A stretch of DNA of 10,837 nt from Verrucomicrobiota bacterium (GTDB lineage: Bacteria > Verrucomicrobiota > Verrucomicrobiia > Opitutales > UBA2995). Both the position numbers and the translations under genes were made by a program. Location: contig JAPUIL010000519.1 of NCBI GenBank assembly GCA_027297085.1, positions 1 to 10,837 of the forward strand. Reading direction: 5' to 3'. The notes beneath the pieces were generated by a model. It saw only the letters and a list, made by a program, of their open reading frames with translations. It ran no database searches and was not told the DNA's origin. Shown here in pieces: positions 2,339 to 10,456 of the stretch; the stretch's first letter is position 1; each line of letters starts with the position of its first letter.

Positions 2339-3289
2339 TCAGGACCAGAATTTGCGAGCCTCTTCCACGTCCAATCCGATCTGATTCCTCAACGCTTCCA
2401 AGTCTTCGAATTTCTGCTCAGGACGAAGGAAATGAAACCATCGGACTTTCAAACGATCGCCGACTCCGAAGGGACAATCCGCCAACACATGGACTTCAAG
2501 CACCAGATCATCCGATCGCTCCACCGTCGGCCGGACACCAAAGTTTGCGACTCCTTTCACCGAGATGGTTTCGCCCTCTTTGATCCCTTCTACCTCCACG
2601 CAGTAGACACCCAAGGGTGGTTTTAATTCAAGAGACCAGGGAAGATTGAGCGTGGGAAATCCTACCTTCGAACCGAGTTGCTTACCTGCGACCACCCTCC
2701 CGATGGAAAAGTAAACTTCGCCCAATAACGCATTGGCGAGTTCCATTTCACCTGCGGTAAGGTGTTTTCGGATACGGGTACTACTAATCGGTTCGCCATC
2801 ATAAAATACGCGTTCGACATTTATTACGTGTACACCGGCATCCAACCCAAGCCGCACGAGCATTGGTATATCTCCCACCCGACGCTTACCAAAACGCCAA
2901 TTGGAACCCACGTGGATTGAACTCAAATTCGGCAAACAACGCTTTAAATAATCCACTAAATCTTCCGCTTCAATAGCAGCGAAGGCTGCATCAAACGGTT
3001 GCTGAATAATATATTCGATATTGTGAGCCTGCAACAACTCAGCTTTTATCCCGGGTGACATTATCATCTCTACCGGATCTTCTGGACGAAACAACCGGCT
3101 AGGATGTGGCCAAAAAGTAAGCACTCCGCACACACCATTAGAAGCATGCGCCGATTGAACCGCCGTTTCTATAACGGCCTGATGGCCCAGGTGAACGCCA
3201 TCGAACATACCAACCGCAAGATGCAGAGGCTTGTCGGGAAAACCGACAGCCTTAAGGCTTTCAAACTGGATGGTGGTTTCTGCTGCCAC
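2339..3289 (-). CDS. ribF: Bifunctional riboflavin kinase / FAD synthetase
   Basis: Phosphorylates riboflavin to FMN and adenylylates FMN to FAD in the cytoplasm. At 316 residues it has normal RibF length (E. coli 313). The N-terminal nucleotidyltransferase domain carries GMFDGVHLGHQ (27-37), the HxGH-type site, with Met where Asn is more usual; GSNWRFGKRRVGD (128-140); and ISSTRIR (168-174). The C-terminal flavokinase domain has GKQLGSKVGFPTLNL (202-216), GVANFGVRPTV (246-256) and LEVHV with the expected catalytic Glu at 265. The usual DLYG segment is replaced by CPFGVG. The start is GTG at 3289: the frame is closed upstream soon after, and the next Met (28) lies inside the active-site motif. 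It is the last gene of the operon, 7 bp after truB, with no visible Shine-Dalgarno sequence. Confidence 0.95.
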   Translation of the reverse strand: MAAETTIQFESLKAVGFPDKPLHLAVGMFDGVHLGHQAVIETAVQSAHASNGVCGVLTFWPHPSRLFRPEDPVEMIMSPGIKAELLQAHNIEYIIQQPFDAAFAAIEAEDLVDYLKRCLPNLSSIHVGSNWRFGKRRVGDIPMLVRLGLDAGVHVINVERVFYDGEPISSTRIRKHLTAGEMELANALLGEVYFSIGRVVAGKQLGSKVGFPTLNLPWSLELKPPLGVYCVEVEGIKEGETISVKGVANFGVRPTVERSDDLVLEVHVLADCPFGVGDRLKVRWFHFLRPEQKFEDLEALRNQIGLDVEEARKFWS

Positions 3290-3296
3290 AACGTTA

Positions 3297-4025
3297 TTAA
3301 TCCGCGTCTGGTGTAAGTGCGCGGTACCCGGGTATCAGGTATTTACTGATTTCGGAAAGTGGTTGCTCTTCAAATTCTTTAAGCTCAACCGCGTCTTTTA
3401 TATTTAAATTATTCGATGCCGTTCTACGCAACTGCGTTAGAATTCCACCACAACCCAAATTCTTACCAAGATCATGCACAAGGCTTCGAATGTAGGTTCC
3501 TTTGGTGCAATAGACGTAAAACTTGCCCGAGGGACGCTCCCAGGAATTTAAAGTGTATTTTGAAAGGCGAATGAAACGTGGTTCCCGGTGCACTTCCTTG
3601 CCCTTTCGGGCGTGTTTGTAGAGCGGCACGCCATTCACCTTGACAGCGGAAAACATGGGAGGCGTTTGATATTGGTCACCAATAAAGATGTTCATCTGCT
3701 CGACGATCAATTCCTCTGTTATGGATTCCGGAACCTCGTGGATCTCCAGGATTTCTCCATCAATGTCGTGTGAGTCTGATACCTTTCCGAGCTCGAACGT
3801 TCCTTCATACTCCTTGTCCAGACTCATGAGACGGGACGAAAGTTTCGTAGCTTTGCCGACCAGAATAATGAGCAAGCCTGTAGCCAGTGGATCCAGGGTG
3901 CCTGCATGCCCCACGCGTTTCATTTTCAATTTGCGCCGTACCCGGTCAACCACGTCATGGGACGTGATGCCGGTTGGCTTATCAATCAACAAGACACCTT
4001 CAAAATCATTTTGTAACTGGGCCAT
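3297..4025 (-). CDS. truB: tRNA pseudouridine(55) synthase
   Basis: Converts U55 in the T loop of tRNAs to pseudouridine. The 242-residue protein opens with [17 protein letters not shown] (10-26). It has the catalytic motif [12 protein letters not shown] (39-50) with Asp45 as nucleophile, then KEYEG (71-75), [21 protein letters not shown] (120-140) and GTYIRSL (176-182). E. coli TruB is about 70 residues longer; here little more than 30 residues follow the catalytic core region, so the C-terminal PUA-like domain is missing or minimal. The ATG at 4025 lies 13 bp after the nrnA-like gene, with at most a weak TAGG before it. Its place beside rbfA and ribF is the conserved bacterial arrangement. 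Confidence 0.95.
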
Positions 4026-4038
4026 AACCTACATAAAA

Positions 4039-5034
4039 TCAGGAAGCTGAACTTACATTCTCCAATTGCACTTCGATCGCTTTGAGCAATAAAGGAAGAA
4101 ACTCTTCGATGGTCGAATCGAAATTCAACCCTGCCGCAGCGGCGTGACCTCCGCCGTTGAACTGCTTGGCAATGGTATCGACCCGGTACTTCTGCTCCTT
4201 AGCTCGCAGACTACCCTTAATCTTACCAGCGTTTTCTTCAACTAGTACTCCGATATCCACCCCGTCGATACTGCGGGCATAATCTACCAGACCTTCAGAG
4301 TCTTCGGTCCTGGCACCCACTTGCTCGTAGATACCGTCCGTTAACAATCCAACGCAAACTCGGCCGTCGAAATGAAGAGTGAATGATTTTAAGAAACTTT
4401 GCAGCAACTCCAATTTGGCAAAACTCTCCCGCTCATAGAGCTCCAAATTCACGCGATTGAGATCAACTCCACATTCAATCAATATGCCCGCCAAATCAAA
4501 GGTATGCTTGGTAGTGGAAGGAAAACGAAACTGACCCGTATCAGTGGCAATACCTACGTAAAGAGCATTGGCCGTATCGCTATCGATCTCATACCCGCAA
4601 TCCAGAAAGTATCCGGCAAGAATCTCACCCGTAGCCGAAGAAGTGCCTTCGATCAAATTCGTTTCGCCATACAAGGTATTCGAAATATGATGATCGATAT
4701 TGCCTAAGGGCTTGGGTATCCGGCTTGCAACATCGGCTCCGGACCGTTTGTCGTCGGCACAATCCACGGCTACAACCTCCCAACCTGAAAAGTCGAAGTC
4801 TGCCCCCAAATGGAAAGGTGTATTTTCCACTAAAAATTTCAAAGTGGCTGGAACATCGTCCTGATTAACACACACAGACTCAATGCTTAAAGACCGCAGA
4901 ACCCTGCAAAGAGCTACCTGCGAACCTATGCAATCGCCGTCGGGTCGAACATGACCGATAACGGCCACTTTCTTTCCTGCCAGAGATTCAACAAGCGATT
5001 TAAACTCAGGAGCGGTTTTTGGATAGTAAGGCAT
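4039..5034 (-). CDS. nrnA: DHH-family phosphoesterase (NrnA/pAp phosphatase-like)
   Basis: Probably degrades 2-5 nt RNA fragments (nanoRNase) and/or 3'-phosphoadenosine 5'-phosphate, using two metal ions. The 331 residues contain the DHH motifs in order: [12 protein letters not shown] (27-38; His28, Asp32, Asp34), VAVDCAD (88-94; Asp91), NIDHHISN (112-119) and ATDTGQFRF (163-171; Asp165). The C-terminal DHHA1 domain ends with GGGHAAAAG (294-302), which binds substrate. The size fits NrnA rather than the larger RecJ. The ATG overlaps the rbfA stop by one base (TGATG), so translation is likely coupled. The rbfA-DHH-truB order is found in many bacteria, including Firmicutes and Bacteroidetes relatives. 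Exact substrate preference cannot be read from sequence; the symbol is by similarity. Confidence 0.88.
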
Positions 5035-5396
5035 CAGTCTAAAATTTCGGGAGGTAATTCTTCTTGGGCAACTTCATCGATCAGATCAACCATCTCAACG
5101 CCGCGTTTAATGGATGGATCATAGAAAAACTTCAGAAAAGGAAGATACTTTAGCACAATCCGTTTACCCAACTGGAAACGAATATTATGTGCATTTTTCC
5201 GAAAAAATTTCTCGGCCTTCTTTTTTTCATCCTCTCCACCTATGACTGAGTAGTAGACGCGCCCGTTTCGAAGATCGGGAGATATCGAGACATCGGTAAT
5301 GGTTATATAAACCGTCTCGCCCTGGAATCGAGTGTGGAGCAAATGGCTGACTTCCTGTTGGACCAGGACATTAACACGTAGATTTCTCTGGCCCAT
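5034..5396 (-). CDS. rbfA: 30S ribosome-binding factor A
   Basis: RbfA binds immature 30S subunits and helps 16S rRNA 5'-end maturation, notably in the cold. The 120-residue protein is one KH-type domain: GQRNLRVNVLVQQEVSHLL (2-20) is the standard N-terminal helix, DVSISPDLRNGRVYYSVIG (35-53) the central strands, and GKRIVLKYLPFLKFFYDPSIKRG (77-99) the conserved C-terminal half. The reading frame continues to a TTG at 5405, but the ATG at 5396 is preferred because MGQRNLRVN matches the usual start of the family. Neither site has a Shine-Dalgarno sequence. It sits 42 bp after infB and overlaps the DHH gene by one base. Confidence 0.93.
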   Translation of the reverse strand: MGQRNLRVNVLVQQEVSHLLHTRFQGETVYITITDVSISPDLRNGRVYYSVIGGEDEKKKAEKFFRKNAHNIRFQLGKRIVLKYLPFLKFFYDPSIKRGVEMVDLIDEVAQEELPPEILD

Positions 5397-5438
5397 GATC
5401 GGCAATCGTTAGTTGTATCCGAGTATTCGCTACACGCT

Positions 5439-7832
5439 CTACAGAGAGGCCCGTTTCTTCTCGATTTCGTAGCACTCAATGACGTCGCCTTCCTGAAAGG
5501 ATCCAAAGTCAGTCAATTGAACACCGCACTCATAACCTGTGCGCACTTCGGTAACATCGTCCTTGAAACGCTTAAGCATGGATACCTTGCTGTCGAAAAT
5601 CGATTCACCGTTGCGAAGAACCCGCGCTTTGGCGTCACGGGCAATACGTCCATCGGACACAAAACACCCCGCAACCATCGTGCGACCTACTGGGAAGAGC
5701 TGGCGAACCTCTGCTGTACCCATCTTCTTTTCAACCAATTCTGGATCGAGCTTGTCAGCCATCACCTCCATCACCTGATCCACCATTTCGTAAATGATAT
5801 TGAATTGCATGATTTTAACGCCCGCGTGTTTGGCGATAGGAGCCACACCACTTTCAAGTCGCACATTGAATCCGATAACTGTGGCATCCGACGTACTGGC
5901 AAGATCCACGTCCTGCTTAGTGATGCCACCAACTTCGGCGGAAATCACTTCCAGATCCACCTTGGGACTTTCAATCGCTTCAAGAATATCCACCACCGCT
6001 TCCACAGAGCCGTAAACATCGCATTTAACAACGACTTTCAGAACCTTCTTCCGTGTCTGTTCAATCGCTTCAAACAAAGTTTCGATCGTGGCAGGTTTGA
6101 CCTCTTCATCCTCGACCACATTGCTTTCGCGCTGATGCTCGATGCGGCGTTCTTCGGCCATACGTTTGGCGGCCTTTTCGTTTTTCACCACTTCAAATTC
6201 TGAACCACTGTCAGGAGTGTCTGACCAGCCGACTATGCGAACCGGGGTGGAAGGTGTGGCCTGTTTCACAGTTTGGCCGTTCTCGTCTATCATGGCTCGC
6301 ACTTTGGCGTAGCTTGTCCCGCAAATGACCGCATCGCCAACTTTTAGAGTACCCTTCTGAACGATGACCGTGGCAGTGGGGCCACGACCCACTTCCATTT
6401 GCGATTCAATCACGGTACCTGCGGCTGCACCCTTGGGGCTGGCCTTCAATTCCATGACCTCGGCCTGCAGATTGATCATCTCGAGAAGCTCCTCTACATT
6501 CTCACCTTTCAGGGCAGACAGGGCTACTGCAATGGTTTCACCGCCCCAGTCTTCCGGCGTAATATTACGCTCCTGCATCTGAGTTTTTACCCGGTCCAAA
6601 TTCGCGCCCTTGGAATCTATCTTGTTGATCGCCACAATAATGGGATCTCCTGATTGCTCGGCAAACTTCAGCGCTTCATCCGTCTGGGGCATAAAACCGT
6701 CGTCGGCGGCAACCACCAGAATGGCCAAGTCGGTTACATGGGCTCCCCGTTCGCGCATTTTAGAAAACGCGGCGTGACCCGGGGTATCGAGGAAAGTAAT
6801 TTTATTATCCCCATGCTCCACCTGATAGGCACCGATGTGCTGGGTAATTCCGCCGAATTCGCCAGCTACTACATCGGTTTTGCGAATGTAGTCGAGCAGC
6901 GTGGTTTTTCCATGGTCGACATGACCCAGAATACAGACAACCGGAGGTCTTGGCTCAAGAAACTGACTTTCATCGACTTTGACTTCCTCCTTCTTTGGAG
7001 CTGGTGGTTTTTCTTCACCGCGGTGTTTCACCTCGAGTAGAAAGCCATGTCTTTCGGCCAGTTTAACAGCTACTTCTTCGTCAATAAACTGATTCATGGA
7101 GGAGAATATCCCCATTTCCATGAGTTCAGATATGAGACGGAAAGGTTTCAGGCCGATGAGCAATGCAAACTCCTTAACCACGATAGGTGGTTTCACAGTC
7201 ACCATTTTCACATCTCCATCAGCTGGAACCTCAGAACTTTCGGACTGATCGGTAACGGCAACTGGAACAGGCGGAGGAGCACTAATGCCAGGTGTGGCGG
7301 GAGCTCGGCCAGCAAGTGGAGGCGGTGCGCCAGGCGCATTGGAAATAGGAGTGCTCGGACTCACTGGAGCGGGAGCAGCAGGAACTGACGGCGGTTTGGG
7401 CGCATTTCCGGTAGGCAAAGTCGGCGGCACAGCTGGCGCAGCTTTTACCAGGGGCGGAGGCGGAGGGGGAGCAGCTGGGGCAGGCGTAGCGGCAGATTTC
7501 CGCTTCTCCTCTTCTTCGAGACGCTTCTCCTCTTTTTCCCTGTCTATATCCGCTTTTGACCGAACGAATGCACTGAGGGGAGGTGGGGCCGGATGCGTTG
7601 GGGCCTCCTTCGGTTCTTCGACGGGAGCGGGAGCCTCTGGCTCAGGAGCACTTGCCTCTTCAGCGACAGGTTCCTTGTCCTTGGTTAGTTCCTCAATCAA
7701 GGATTCTGCAGAAATCGGGTCAATACCACTCGACGCGGTAGATACTGCATATCCCCGTTCCTTGAGTAGCTCGACGATTTCCTTGCTGGCAATCCCGGTC
7801 TGTTTCGAAATTTCGTGAATTCTGACACTCAT
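5439..7832 (-). CDS. infB: Translation initiation factor IF-2
   Basis: GTPase that places initiator fMet-tRNA on the 30S subunit and promotes subunit joining. At 797 residues it is a long-form IF2. An IF2_N module fills 1-50 (VRIHEISKQTGIASKEIVELL). A Pro/Ala/Glu-rich disordered linker runs to about 210, including six consecutive prolines (122-127) and a charged coiled stretch near 95-113. A second IF2_N module lies at about 215-270. The G domain has G1 GHVDHGKTT (303-311), G2 GGIT (327-330), G3 DTPGH (349-353), G4 NKID (403-406) and G5 SAL (439-441), followed by domains II-IV ending in the fMet-tRNA-binding barrel (VFPVGRT-like LFPVGRTMVAGC). The ATG at 7832 is preceded by GGCGGAAC, a weak ribosome site. 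It follows nusA by 51 bp. Confidence 0.97.
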   Translation of the reverse strand: MSVRIHEISKQTGIASKEIVELLKERGYAVSTASSGIDPISAESLIEELTKDKEPVAEEASAPEPEAPAPVEEPKEAPTHPAPPPLSAFVRSKADIDREKEEKRLEEEEKRKSAATPAPAAPPPPPPLVKAAPAVPPTLPTGNAPKPPSVPAAPAPVSPSTPISNAPGAPPPLAGRAPATPGISAPPPVPVAVTDQSESSEVPADGDVKMVTVKPPIVVKEFALLIGLKPFRLISELMEMGIFSSMNQFIDEEVAVKLAERHGFLLEVKHRGEEKPPAPKKEEVKVDESQFLEPRPPVVCILGHVDHGKTTLLDYIRKTDVVAGEFGGITQHIGAYQVEHGDNKITFLDTPGHAAFSKMRERGAHVTDLAILVVAADDGFMPQTDEALKFAEQSGDPIIVAINKIDSKGANLDRVKTQMQERNITPEDWGGETIAVALSALKGENVEELLEMINLQAEVMELKASPKGAAAGTVIESQMEVGRGPTATVIVQKGTLKVGDAVICGTSYAKVRAMIDENGQTVKQATPSTPVRIVGWSDTPDSGSEFEVVKNEKAAKRMAEERRIEHQRESNVVEDEEVKPATIETLFEAIEQTRKKVLKVVVKCDVYGSVEAVVDILEAIESPKVDLEVISAEVGGITKQDVDLASTSDATVIGFNVRLESGVAPIAKHAGVKIMQFNIIYEMVDQVMEVMADKLDPELVEKKMGTAEVRQLFPVGRTMVAGCFVSDGRIARDAKARVLRNGESIFDSKVSMLKRFKDDVTEVRTGYECGVQLTDFGSFQEGDVIECYEIEKKRASL

Positions 7833-7883: not shown

Positions 7884-9128
7884 TTATTCCTTGGAATGGA
7901 ATTCGCTGACTTTGGTTAAAATGATATTCGCTTCTTCATCGGTAAATCCGGAATCAACCAAGTCGGAGGTTTCAACGCCTGTAAATGCATCGGGACTCAC
8001 CAGTCCAACCGCAACCAGACGGTTGGCGAGCTCATCGCTGATACCGGGGATTTGGTTAAGACCCGCTATAGCGCGCTCCTTGCGATCCTCAAATCCTCCA
8101 GCTACCTTTTCCTTGCTGATGTCCAGACGCCAGCCCATCAGGCGTGATGTGAGACGCGCATTCTGACCACGCCGGCCAATCGCCACAGATAAATCGCGAT
8201 CGTTTACTTCAAAGTGAATGCGCTTGTTGCGCTCGTCGATTTCCACATTCAACGGCACCGCAGGTTTTAAAGCCTCGGCCAACATTTCCTTCGGATCATC
8301 GAAATGACGGATGATATCAATCTTTTCGCCACCGAGCTCTCGGACAATGCTCTTAACACGAGCTCCGCGGGCACCCACACAAGCGCCTACTGGATCCACT
8401 TTCTTGTCCCGGCTGGCAACAGCGATCTTGGTGCGGTAACCCGGCTCGCGGGCCAGGGCCTTGATAACAACGGTTCCATCGGAGATCTCGGTAACTTCCA
8501 ATTCCATAAGTCGACGGATAAATTTCGGATGTGCGCGGGAAAGGATCAATTCCGGACCACGGTTGGTTTGCTCAATGGCCAAAAGTAAACAGCGAATCCG
8601 CTCACCCGGTGCATAATCTTCGCCAAAAACTTTTTCACGTCCGGGCAAAAGAGCCTCGGCCTTACCAAGATCAATAATCAGGTCGTTGCGCTCACGCCTT
8701 CGCACGATACCGGAAACCACATCGCCAATTGAATCTTTGTAATCATCGAAAATGCGTTCCTTTTCGAACTGGCGCACCTGTTGCATAATGGCCTGCCTGG
8801 CAGTTTGCGCAGCAATCCGTCCCAGGAAAGCCGGGTCGATTGGCTTTTCCAACACACCTCCAAGCTCAGCATTCCGGTCGATCAGCTTGGCCTTTTCAAT
8901 ATGGATCTGGGTACGCGGATCACTTATGGAATCTACAATATCCAGGAGGATAGATGCGTGAAGGCCACCGGTCTTCGGGTCGATTTCAACTTTAAGCTCT
9001 TGACCAGCGTTCACGCCCTTGGCGGCCGCTGTTTTAATAGCAAGAGAAATGGCTCCGATCATATCTTCACGATCGATACCCTTCTCCTTCTCCATGTATT
9101 CCAGGACGGATAGAATTTCGCTGCTCAT
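7884..9128 (-). CDS. nusA: Transcription termination/antitermination factor NusA
   Basis: NusA binds RNA polymerase and nascent RNA and modulates pausing, intrinsic termination and antitermination. The 414 residues from the ATG at 9128 show the N-terminal polymerase-binding domain (1-130, starting [21 protein letters not shown]), an S1 domain (about 135-198), KH1 ([25 protein letters not shown], 234-258), KH2 ([14 protein letters not shown], 313-326) and a C-terminal helix-hairpin-helix unit ([15 protein letters not shown], 357-371). One such unit is present, not the two acidic repeats of E. coli NusA. The frame stays open to an ATG at 9203, but that extension is encoded by the terminator hairpin and does not resemble NusA, so 9128 is chosen. 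No Shine-Dalgarno sequence precedes it; the leader is U-rich. First gene of the operon. Confidence 0.96.
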
Positions 9129-9143
9129 GTCAAAAAAAGTGAT

Positions 9144-9171
9144 AAAAAAAAGCGGGCTGAATAGCCCACTT
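9144..9171 (-). terminator. Intrinsic terminator in the nusA leader
   Basis: On the minus strand AAGTGGGCT (9171-9163), loop ATTC (9162-9159) and AGCCCGCTT (9158-9150) form a 9-bp stem with one G-U pair, running into eight T residues (9151-9144). It ends 15 nt before the nusA ATG, leaving no room for another promoter. All transcription into nusA from upstream must pass it. It may also end the DUF2851 transcript. Confidence 0.85.
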
Positions 9172-9189
9172 CCCAGTGTTGGAAAAGTG
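9167..9189 (-). promoter_or_regulatory. Alternative hairpin overlapping the terminator (candidate antiterminator)
   Basis: Minus-strand CACTTTTC (9189-9182) pairs with GGGAAGTG (9174-9167) through 8 bp, two of them G-U, with a 7-nt loop. Its 3' arm uses five bases (9171-9167) of the terminator's 5' arm, so the two stems cannot both form fully. It is transcribed first. Whether it is stable enough to matter needs a folding calculation. Confidence 0.45.
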
Positions 9190-9202
9190 TTGAAAGGCAG
9201 CA

Positions 9203-9231
9203 TAGTTAAACCCCTGCCAGACCCATGTCAA
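9203..9231 (-). promoter_or_regulatory. Candidate promoter of the nusA-ribF operon
   Basis: A perfect TTGACA lies at 9231-9226 on the minus strand, 29 nt after the DUF2851 stop. The -10 element falls in TTAACTAT (9209-9202): TTAACT at 16-bp or AACTAT at 18-bp spacing each match 3 of 6. Transcription would begin near 9195 and give a leader of about 65 nt that contains the two overlapping hairpins. The -35 is strong, the -10 imperfect. Confidence 0.55.
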
Positions 9232-9259
9232 GTGTCCATAAAGCGGGAGTTTGGGTTAC

Positions 9260-10456
9260 CTATTTTTCCCGGGTTGGAGCAGTTAAATCGAGCAATTGCT
9301 GCAGAATCCCCTGCAAGCCTCCGTTGCAGATCGGGATTGGCCGGGATGCCCCTGCCGTTACTTCCTTTGACACTTGCTTCATAACAGCCGGCACATCTCC
9401 GGGAAACCAGTGAAACCACACAGAAAACAGAGTTCTGTCCGACTGGGCGGCCAGAAGGGGCAAAAACCCGTCGCTCACCAGATTTTCAATGCGGGTCCCC
9501 CCTACGGTATCAGCCAGGACCGTTTTCGAGAGTGCCGACCGAACAGAGTTGAGCTCCAGGTCCTTTCTGCGGACTTCGAGCACCTGGTCATTCTCGACCC
9601 GAGGAAGCTTGTGAAGGAACCCTTCCATCTCGTCCGGCCAAAGCGGCCGTTGACCAACCCAGTCCAGGTATTGCTCCAGTCGCTGCCGTGGGTGATTAGC
9701 CGGTCGTGTACCAGAAACTCGCCAACGTCGCTGACCGGCCTCATATAGGTCGGCGGCTTTATAATTTCCGGAACGCAGGGCATTTAGAGAATAATCGCCG
9801 GCCACAAACAACATCACCGCCCGGTTATACCTGTAGCCTAAAATTTCAAGCGCGGTTTGATGGCAGGCTTCCTCCCAACCAAGAGCTTCAATTCGTTTCC
9901 TGGCATAGACCACCTTGCCTCGCCACCGTTTATGGGCTGAGTCAACCAAGAGGGATAGCCGGTCGGAAAGCGGCATGGTAAGAAGCGTCTCACTCAAAGC
10001 CGGCTCGCTTCCAACCGTCAGAGCACCAAGCGCTTCCTCCTCGGCATAGCTCTCCAGCCCCTGAGGCAAAAGTTCCAGAAAAAGCAAAGAGTTATCTACT
10101 GAGCATTGAACGAGACGACGTCGCGCTTTGGGAGGAAAAACAAGTATGTGCAGAACCACGTTCCGAAAAGCTGGATCGGTTTCATGGCCATGGGCCTCCC
10201 AGTCGGACTCAAAAAAGTGCAGCTCCGCATCGCCCGAAATTTTCTGCCCGTCTACCAAAATCGAAACGTCCTTAAAGTCCGGGCCAGCTAGTAAGTTCCA
10301 CTTTCCCAAGTCGACAATTTCAAGAGAAGAGCCTTCCAACGTTTTCAAATCCGTCCGGCGAAACTCTCCACGAGCCCAAATCTTTTGGACCAGGCGTTCT
10401 GAAATAGTAAGAGGACCATACTCTCCCTCAATCTCTGCTATAATTTCCGGCTTCAC
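9260..10456 (-). CDS. DUF2851 family protein
   Basis: A 398-residue protein matching, by recognisable motifs, the uncharacterised DUF2851 family. The N-terminal block has the features typical of it: RLVQKIWARGEF (21-32), LKTLEGSSLEIVDLGKWNLLAGPDFKD (37-63), GDAELHFFESDWEAHGHE (75-92) and NVVLHIL (99-105). The many Asp, Glu and His residues in GPDF, GDAELH and DWEAHGH would suit a metal-dependent enzyme, but no activity is known to me. The C-terminus carries ICNGGLQGILQQLLDL, a family-like end in which the second Cys often seen is not obvious. There is no signal peptide or membrane segment. The start is GTG at 10456: a TAA closes the frame shortly upstream, and no ATG is in frame before it. 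It stands where rimP often precedes nusA but bears no resemblance to RimP. Confidence 0.8.
   Translation of the reverse strand: MKPEIIAEIEGEYGPLTISERLVQKIWARGEFRRTDLKTLEGSSLEIVDLGKWNLLAGPDFKDVSILVDGQKISGDAELHFFESDWEAHGHETDPAFRNVVLHILVFPPKARRRLVQCSVDNSLLFLELLPQGLESYAEEEALGALTVGSEPALSETLLTMPLSDRLSLLVDSAHKRWRGKVVYARKRIEALGWEEACHQTALEILGYRYNRAVMLFVAGDYSLNALRSGNYKAADLYEAGQRRWRVSGTRPANHPRQRLEQYLDWVGQRPLWPDEMEGFLHKLPRVENDQVLEVRRKDLELNSVRSALSKTVLADTVGGTRIENLVSDGFLPLLAAQSDRTLFSVWFHWFPGDVPAVMKQVSKEVTAGASRPIPICNGGLQGILQQLLDLTAPTREK

Follow-up and report, generated by a model that had tools for sequence, protein, structure and literature searches.

A conserved, attenuator-like leader with a predicted antiterminator directly upstream of nusA in Opitutales (Verrucomicrobiota)

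In this work, we focused on the leader of the nusA operon in a 10,837-nucleotide stretch of DNA from a Verrucomicrobiota bacterium of the order Opitutales (contig JAPUIL010000519.1, hereafter the window). The closest named relatives by nusA likewise place the host in Opitutales. A preliminary description had read this leader as attenuator-like, and comparison with related genomes supported that reading: the element is conserved, specific to nusA and not the terminator of the upstream gene. We propose, with a probability of roughly two thirds, that NusA exerts feedback attenuation on nusA-infB-rbfA-nrnA-truB-ribF via a promoter-proximal terminator opposed by a mutually exclusive antiterminator. 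A two-state RNA of about 50 nt with a co-evolving antiterminator would provide a defined system for NusA feedback.

The operon lies on the minus strand, and the order previously given for its genes behind the terminator was confirmed by Pfam annotation: nusA (7884..9128; NusA_N, KH_5), which comes first, then, in the read-through operon, infB encoding IF-2 (5439..7832), rbfA (5034..5405; RBFA), an nrnA-like gene for a DHH/DHHA1 phosphoesterase (4039..5034), truB (3297..4025) and ribF (2339..3289). The start of nusA reads ATGAG in 109/109 loci with upstream sequence. An in-frame ATG at 9203, which would add 25 codons, was rejected as the nusA start because its frame is open in the window alone of eight genus and family loci; the open frame 9203-9129 (minus strand, through the terminator) is probably due to chance. 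On the plus strand, positions 240-2206 encode an ECF-type sigma factor, a 161-aa protein and a PDZ-domain protein, convergent with ribF; by its position only, the 161-aa protein is possibly the anti-sigma of the neighbouring sigma factor.

The whole leader is contained, on the minus strand, in the 131-nt gap between a DUF2851 gene and nusA. It comprises a putative -35 box of the operon promoter, CTTGACA (9226..9232), a weak -10 region of uncertain position (TTTAAC or TAACTA, 9203..9210, spacer 15-17) and, as judged from the -35 box, a predicted transcript start region, where the leader RNA would begin with many pyrimidines and few G (9190..9200). Segment 1 (CACTTTTCC, 9181..9189), assigned from fold energy and from the better energy of its own pairing than of swapped ones (see below), is the 5' arm of the candidate antiterminator hairpin. 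Segment 2 (GGGAAGTGGGCT, 9163..9174) is the shared arm, which may pair through 9174-9167 with segment 1 or through 9172-9163 with segment 3 (AGCCCGCTTT, 9149..9158), the 3' arm of the terminator, assigned from folding and from a signature that, over 53 genomes, is confined to nusA. The terminator stem (9172-9163 with 9158-9149) has 9 bp plus a basal G.U pair and a loop ATTC (minus strand); it reads GGGCTATTCAGCCC and fits the motif GGGC...GCCC. The U-tract (T8, 9144..9151), with a T-run in aligned relatives, is the predicted termination zone, the T-run lying 15 nt and the stem end 20 nt before the nusA ATG (9128-9126). The preliminary description had placed TTGACA (9231-9226), the 9-bp stem, the T8 and the 15-nt gap correctly to the base. 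The 8-bp hairpin (9189-9167) that it had described as competing for five bases of the terminator stem is likewise present: 9189-9181 and 9174-9167 form eight pairs with one bulge, and AAGTG (9171-9167) is common to both structures. Among these bases, U9168 would pair with A9188 in the antiterminator or form a wobble with G9153 in the terminator.

In the single sequence, these signals were of unequal strength. The terminator 39-mer folded at -16.8 kcal/mol, far better than its shuffles (z -4.14, 0/200 as good), in keeping with the strong terminator claimed earlier. The competing hairpin alone was weak (z -1.67, 17/200 shuffles as good), also when seven more bases were included (z -1.91, 10/200). 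When the two proposed states were compared, the hairpin reached -6.6 to -7.1 kcal/mol vs -16.8 for the terminator; being less stable, the antiterminator loses by equilibrium energy alone. TTGACA was observed 6 times for 5.9 expected on both strands of the window. A promoter scan of the window yielded no -35/-10 consensus pair at the nusA leader, and a generic terminator scan omitted the leader terminator, which folding detects, i.e. by consensus promoter and terminator scans the site is not separable from chance. Against Rfam, the window had no match at the gathering threshold; when E up to 10 was allowed, the matches were to other families and all below threshold. In the window sequence alone, the competing hairpin and TTGACA are thus not clearly above chance; both are lifted by the comparison of relatives, in which CTTGAC is found in all 92 leaders and the hairpin co-evolves with the terminator.

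To this end, nusA upstream regions were collected from 110 Opitutales loci, i.e. the best 80 of 341 confirmed loci and the best 30 of a second set; one (L015) came without upstream sequence and the other 109 gave 95 distinct last-100-nt sequences. The following criteria were considered: a terminator folding at -7 kcal/mol or lower, with 15-40 nt between the end of its stem and the ATG, together with TTGAC[AT] upstream. This composite was found in 92 of the 95 distinct regions, vs 0/475 mononucleotide-shuffled regions (terminator in 47) and 0/467 stretches further upstream in the same loci (terminator in 60). Over the 92 leaders, the terminator had a median energy of -14 kcal/mol and its stem ended a median of 21 nt before the ATG, TTGAC[AT] being a median of 58 nt from the stem (5-95% range 52-64, full range 44-75). 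TTGAC[AT] was itself a selection criterion; the C before it was unselected and is present in all 92 leaders with the arrangement. Only a weak T/A preference was seen at the offset expected for the -10 box. Stems with at least one G.U pair, basal pairs counted, occur in 90/92 leaders, and in an alignment of 43 of the 92 leaders, selected as GTGGG-type, the final core pair can be C-G, U-A, U-G or G-U. The loss of the hairpin from close relatives had been named beforehand as an argument against the element; in eight genus and family loci, conservation is high at the -35 box, at segments 1 and 2 (and with them the hairpin), along the stem and in the U-tract.

As the 95-leader set was drawn from the best loci and leans to close kin, 18 more distant Opitutales leaders were added as an offset under the same criteria, an overlap with the 95 being possible: 13/18 had the terminator and 12/18 the composite. 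The six genomes lacking the composite are G031, G032, G035, G048 and G049 (0.8-1.1 Mb) and G021 (64% complete, 1.3 Mb); G013, a genome of 0.9 Mb, retains it. The usual terminator is missing from the leaders L186, L188, L189, L190 and L192, all of them from genomes of 0.8-1.1 Mb, so genome reduction may entail loss of this leader. The exceptions among the 95 regions were L092, L094 and L103; the first two, from the same genus, retain CTTGACATGA though without the usual terminator.

The 5' part of the leader bears on a rival reading, in which the same attenuator is run by another factor: examples would be a ribosomal or Nus-complex protein that binds the G-poor stretch at the 5' end, or RNA chaperones of the cold-shock type that unwind the hairpins. 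Ahead of the hairpin, the leader does contain little G and many pyrimidines (over 92 leaders, the weighted G frequency 36-48 nt past the start of the -35 box is 0 to 0.12), as expected of a single-stranded protein site, and the operon encodes IF-2 and RbfA; antitermination by CspA-family proteins at E. coli nusA, infB, rbfA and pnp has also been proposed, and disputed. However, the Opitutales leader alignment showed as conserved parts the -35 box, the terminator and the U-tract, with no long conserved structure seen, and NusA was the effector favoured by Naville and Gautheret (PMC2965389) for a related leader. We consider control by such a factor unlikely, and NusA feedback remains the preferred reading.

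In order to assess the antiterminator, each 1:2 hairpin was compared with shuffles of its own sequence, which gave z below -1 in 48/92 leaders and below -2 in 21/92 (two gave no z), with on average 6.8 arm pairs vs 5.7 in shuffles. Because these per-sequence shuffles were weak, we adopted a swap test, in which the segment 1 of a leader is paired with its own shared arm vs the arms of other clades. Over 32 clusters, own 1:2 pairs reached -6.56 vs -5.12 kcal/mol for swapped ones (p at the floor of 1/301); the negative controls, i.e. the promoter spacer and nusA codons 2-10, gave p of 0.97 and 0.40, and the positive control, segment 3, p at the floor. The result varied with cluster number (p 0.0005 for 67 and for 34 clusters, 0.010 for 6 and 0.17 for 3), and in a first version of the test own pairs were better in 20/32 clusters (permutation p 0.002, Wilcoxon p 0.03). 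The comparison across related leaders suggested in the preliminary description thus backs the second hairpin by co-evolution: as computed, the predicted 1:2 and 2:3 pairings co-evolve within Opitutales, and the alternative partners of the shared arm are under selection, as in a mutually exclusive attenuator. For the 26 GTGGG-core leaders of the class and phylum samples (25 of them outside Opitutales), co-evolution was weak (p 0.045; controls 0.51 and 0.79). The RNAalifold consensus shows the terminator alone because MAFFT leaves segment 1 out of register.

At the position of the shared arm corresponding to U9168, 65 leaders carry T and the other 27 carry C; the segment 3 partner of this base was G in 91/92 (A in L067). 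In T leaders, the segment 1 partner was A in 57/65 (7 unpaired, 1 G); in C leaders, it was G in 18/27 (9 unpaired). As these partners are read from minimum-energy folds, more weight is given to the swap test. A strict rule, by which the U.G wobble would occur only where the U pairs with an A of segment 1, was rejected: among 64 U.G leaders, this partner was A in 56, unpaired in 7 and G in 1. With C at this position, 25 of the 27 leaders carry a G.U pair elsewhere in the stem.

Co-evolution of segments 1 and 2 would be equally expected of an unregulated attenuator, in which the balance of 1:2 and 2:3 sets a constant read-through fraction and tunes the operon without a sensor. We regard such a fixed ratio as quite unlikely, since in B. 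subtilis the NusA level feeds back on its leader terminator, as stated in a review passage (PMC12288461), and a terminator core specific to nusA suggests more than a ratio.

That specificity was assessed within genomes. Across 53 whole genomes, the signature AGTGGG-N(5-9)-CCCGCTTTTTT had 19 occurrences, no genome having more than one; coordinate comparison assigned 19/19 to the position directly before nusA. The fully paired variant AGCGGG...CCCGC occurred 9 times, of which 4 at nusA (G024, G042, G009, G043) and 5 elsewhere. A search of the window's own genome for the antiterminator motif, tolerating up to 3 mismatches, found it once. Additionally, a covariance model was built from 43 leaders and run over 18 genomes, at most 150 first-look candidates being scored per genome; among the candidates scored, 19 matches with E up to 1 were obtained. 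All 14 matches with E below 0.1 were at nusA; 10 of them are expected by construction, since the leaders of their genomes are in the model, and 4 come from genomes outside it (G005, G009, G015, G017). The five weaker matches were divided between nusA (G013, G016) and other places (three), and G012 gave no match among the first-look candidates scored. These searches support the leader as a conserved, attenuator-like element specific to nusA in the genomes searched, and its signature may be used to locate nusA leaders in unannotated genomes.

The terminator might instead be the ordinary 3' terminator of the DUF2851 gene (9260..10456, minus strand, Pfam; upstream neighbour outside the element), with nusA transcribed from an undetected promoter. 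In the window, this gene is co-directional with nusA and ends 131 nt before the nusA ATG, and its protein belongs to a cluster of 35 co-directional upstream proteins, in which the Pfam match to DUF2851 rests on the window protein. However, different genes occupy the upstream position among relatives, and the terminator persists beside divergent ones in several of the loci tested: QueC (one locus tested; its cluster holds 20 divergent loci), TetR and undecaprenyl-phosphate-translocase-like genes in Opitutales, PanB and amino-acid kinase genes in other orders (Pfam, one locus each). Orientation was called by the longest ORF, so some of the 134 calls are uncertain. The distance from CTTGAC to the terminator is also narrow, and a stem ending 15-40 nt before the ATG leaves little room for a separate promoter, so that nusA mRNA would nearly always read through the terminator; with a putative CTTGAC[AT] -35 box upstream in 92/95 regions, this agrees with the earlier claim that transcripts must read through to reach the operon. 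The divergent neighbours contradict the reading of the leader terminator as the upstream gene's own, and its probability is very low. Apart from this, the DUF2851 protein is a frequent co-directional neighbour of nusA in Opitutales (the cluster of 35). A tRNA gene was sought upstream of L003 with ARAGORN and none was found.

Leaders were further surveyed outside Opitutales, in class and phylum samples hand-picked roughly for family spread before the leaders were viewed. With looser criteria and without a shuffled control, the class sample (40 genomes, i.e. 39 outside Opitutales and G025 inside) had a terminator before nusA in 37/40, also with TTGAC upstream in 34/40, and other classes of the phylum in 14/20 and 11/20, respectively; L121 and L145 are doubtful cases in these counts. 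In L153, L168 and L169, from other classes, a terminator was noted by eye further upstream. Terminator stem sequences differ between orders, AAGTCGG or GTGGAAAC stems being found elsewhere in the phylum, and the GGGc...gCCC stem motif present in the window is not phylum-wide.

Other leader designs were observed in this survey. Leaders from other orders (L115, L120, L125, L131, L133, L136, L142) have a hairpin of the type GCTGG...CCAGC followed closely by a terminator of the type AAGTCGG...CCGACTT; TTGAC lies about 70 rather than 58 nt ahead of the stem, and variants occur in L127, L141 and L146; from its sequence, this looks like a second leader design. A third type, with GTGGAAAC...GTTTCCAC-like stems before nusA, was seen in L114, L116, L123, L132, L137 and L144. 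In L114, L116, L137 and L144, the nearest upstream ORF is divergent and falls in one protein cluster, putatively LpxI-like.

RimP_N (PF02576) was found in 0/53 relatives, 0/113 class genomes and 0/79 phylum genomes (overlapping samples), vs 10/14 controls; a diverged RimP below detection may exist in the phylum. The nusA-infB-rbfA order is present in the window, rimP being undetected in the sampled Verrucomicrobiota genomes. That a rimP-type leader persists where no RimP was detected in the phylum argues against RimP as effector and for control by NusA.

We propose that NusA feedback would operate as follows. Transcription would start about 50 nt before the terminator, and the nascent RNA would first fold the small 1:2 antiterminator hairpin. 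Once segment 3 emerges, the stronger 2:3 terminator could displace it, and the outcome of 1:2 vs 2:3 would set how often polymerase enters nusA. Polymerase-bound NusA would favour terminator folding and pausing, so that ample NusA would lead to termination in vivo, and scarce NusA to the 1:2 fold and read-through; the feedback would cover nusA, infB, rbfA, nrnA, truB and ribF. What computation shows is the anatomy, its conservation, its confinement to nusA within the genomes searched, the lack of dependence on the neighbouring gene and the co-evolution of 1:2 and 2:3; the transcript start, termination in the cell, the role of NusA as effector and the response to its level are inferred. One point against NusA feedback is that a strong stem with an unbroken U8 departs from the profile classically associated with NusA-dependent terminators.

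A more specific scenario, which we offer tentatively and with more doubt than confidence, is that after the apparent loss of rimP in the phylum the Opitutales nusA leader turned into a genuine RNA switch with two states, in which the terminator faces competition from a short antiterminator that starts near the predicted transcript start. The near-fixed U.G wobble would be kept because a single U has to serve both folds, opposite A in the antiterminator and opposite G in the terminator, and an RNA of about 50 nt would read NusA occupancy of polymerase directly. The same short, discrete predicted RNA could in principle act in trans as a small RNA, but segment 1 varies from clade to clade in step with segment 2, and matches to Rfam sRNA families were far below cut-off, so that this is barely conceivable compared with NusA feedback attenuation.

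The closest known system is the rimP-leader (RF01770; Naville and Gautheret 2010, PMC2965389), a short terminator with a conserved GGGc...gCCC stem directly before the nusA-infB operon and said to be specific to it. It has been described as the most ubiquitous of attenuators, NusA and RimP being the candidate effectors and NusA the favoured one; the general rimP-leader has no visible antiterminator, some Gammaproteobacteria having one on a second tandem terminator (PMC2965389). The leader described here resembles it in having a terminator directly upstream of the nusA-infB operon and, in the window, a GGGC...GCCC stem. It differs in that RimP is elsewhere the operon's first gene whereas here nusA is first and rimP undetected, and in its predicted, co-evolving antiterminator. 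The RF01770 model gave 0/18 genomes over cut-off and no listed weak match at nusA (mostly 126 first-look candidates scored per genome), nor did it match the window stretch when E values up to 10 were allowed; the model is narrow, as shown by a control over cut-off in 1/14 genomes.

As in leaders autoregulated by NusA, a terminator lies between the putative promoter and the operon. The precedent invoked in the preliminary description is borne out for B. subtilis, where a passage of a review (PMC12288461, after Mondal 2016) states that NusA is autoregulated by intrinsic termination in its 5' leader. Both leaders thus resemble each other in that intrinsic termination would govern transcription into nusA, but NusA dependence was measured there and is presumed here, and the review passage describes no nusA antiterminator (PMC12288461). 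In B. subtilis, NusA stimulates intrinsic termination, and NusA-dependent terminators tend towards weak hairpins or distally interrupted U-tracts; in contrast, the window has a strong stem and an uninterrupted U8. For S. agalactiae rimP-nusA, RNA-seq revealed a short terminated RNA and a long transcript with the same start, the short RNA ending 31 nt downstream of it at an intrinsic terminator, and NusA feedback was proposed (PMC4448216). The likeness lies in this short terminator-ended RNA before a nusA operon and in the feedback proposed, the difference in an operon that starts with rimP, a shorter leader and, in the passage describing it, no mention of an antiterminator (PMC4448216). NusA feedback was also reported, or proposed, for E. 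coli metY-rimP-nusA-infB, as cited in PMC2965389 and PMC4448216. There, terminators likewise lie upstream of rimP; the leader, however, is complex and includes a tRNA gene, sites for RNase III and more than one promoter. The suggestion that the fold and its use in this lineage may be undescribed is consistent with the open-licence full-text literature, in which no Verrucomicrobiota nusA leader or attenuation was found, by title or start of abstract, among the matches listed. NusA feedback is thus a known kind of control, of which the nusA-first leader with a predicted, mutually exclusive antiterminator appears to be a new form.
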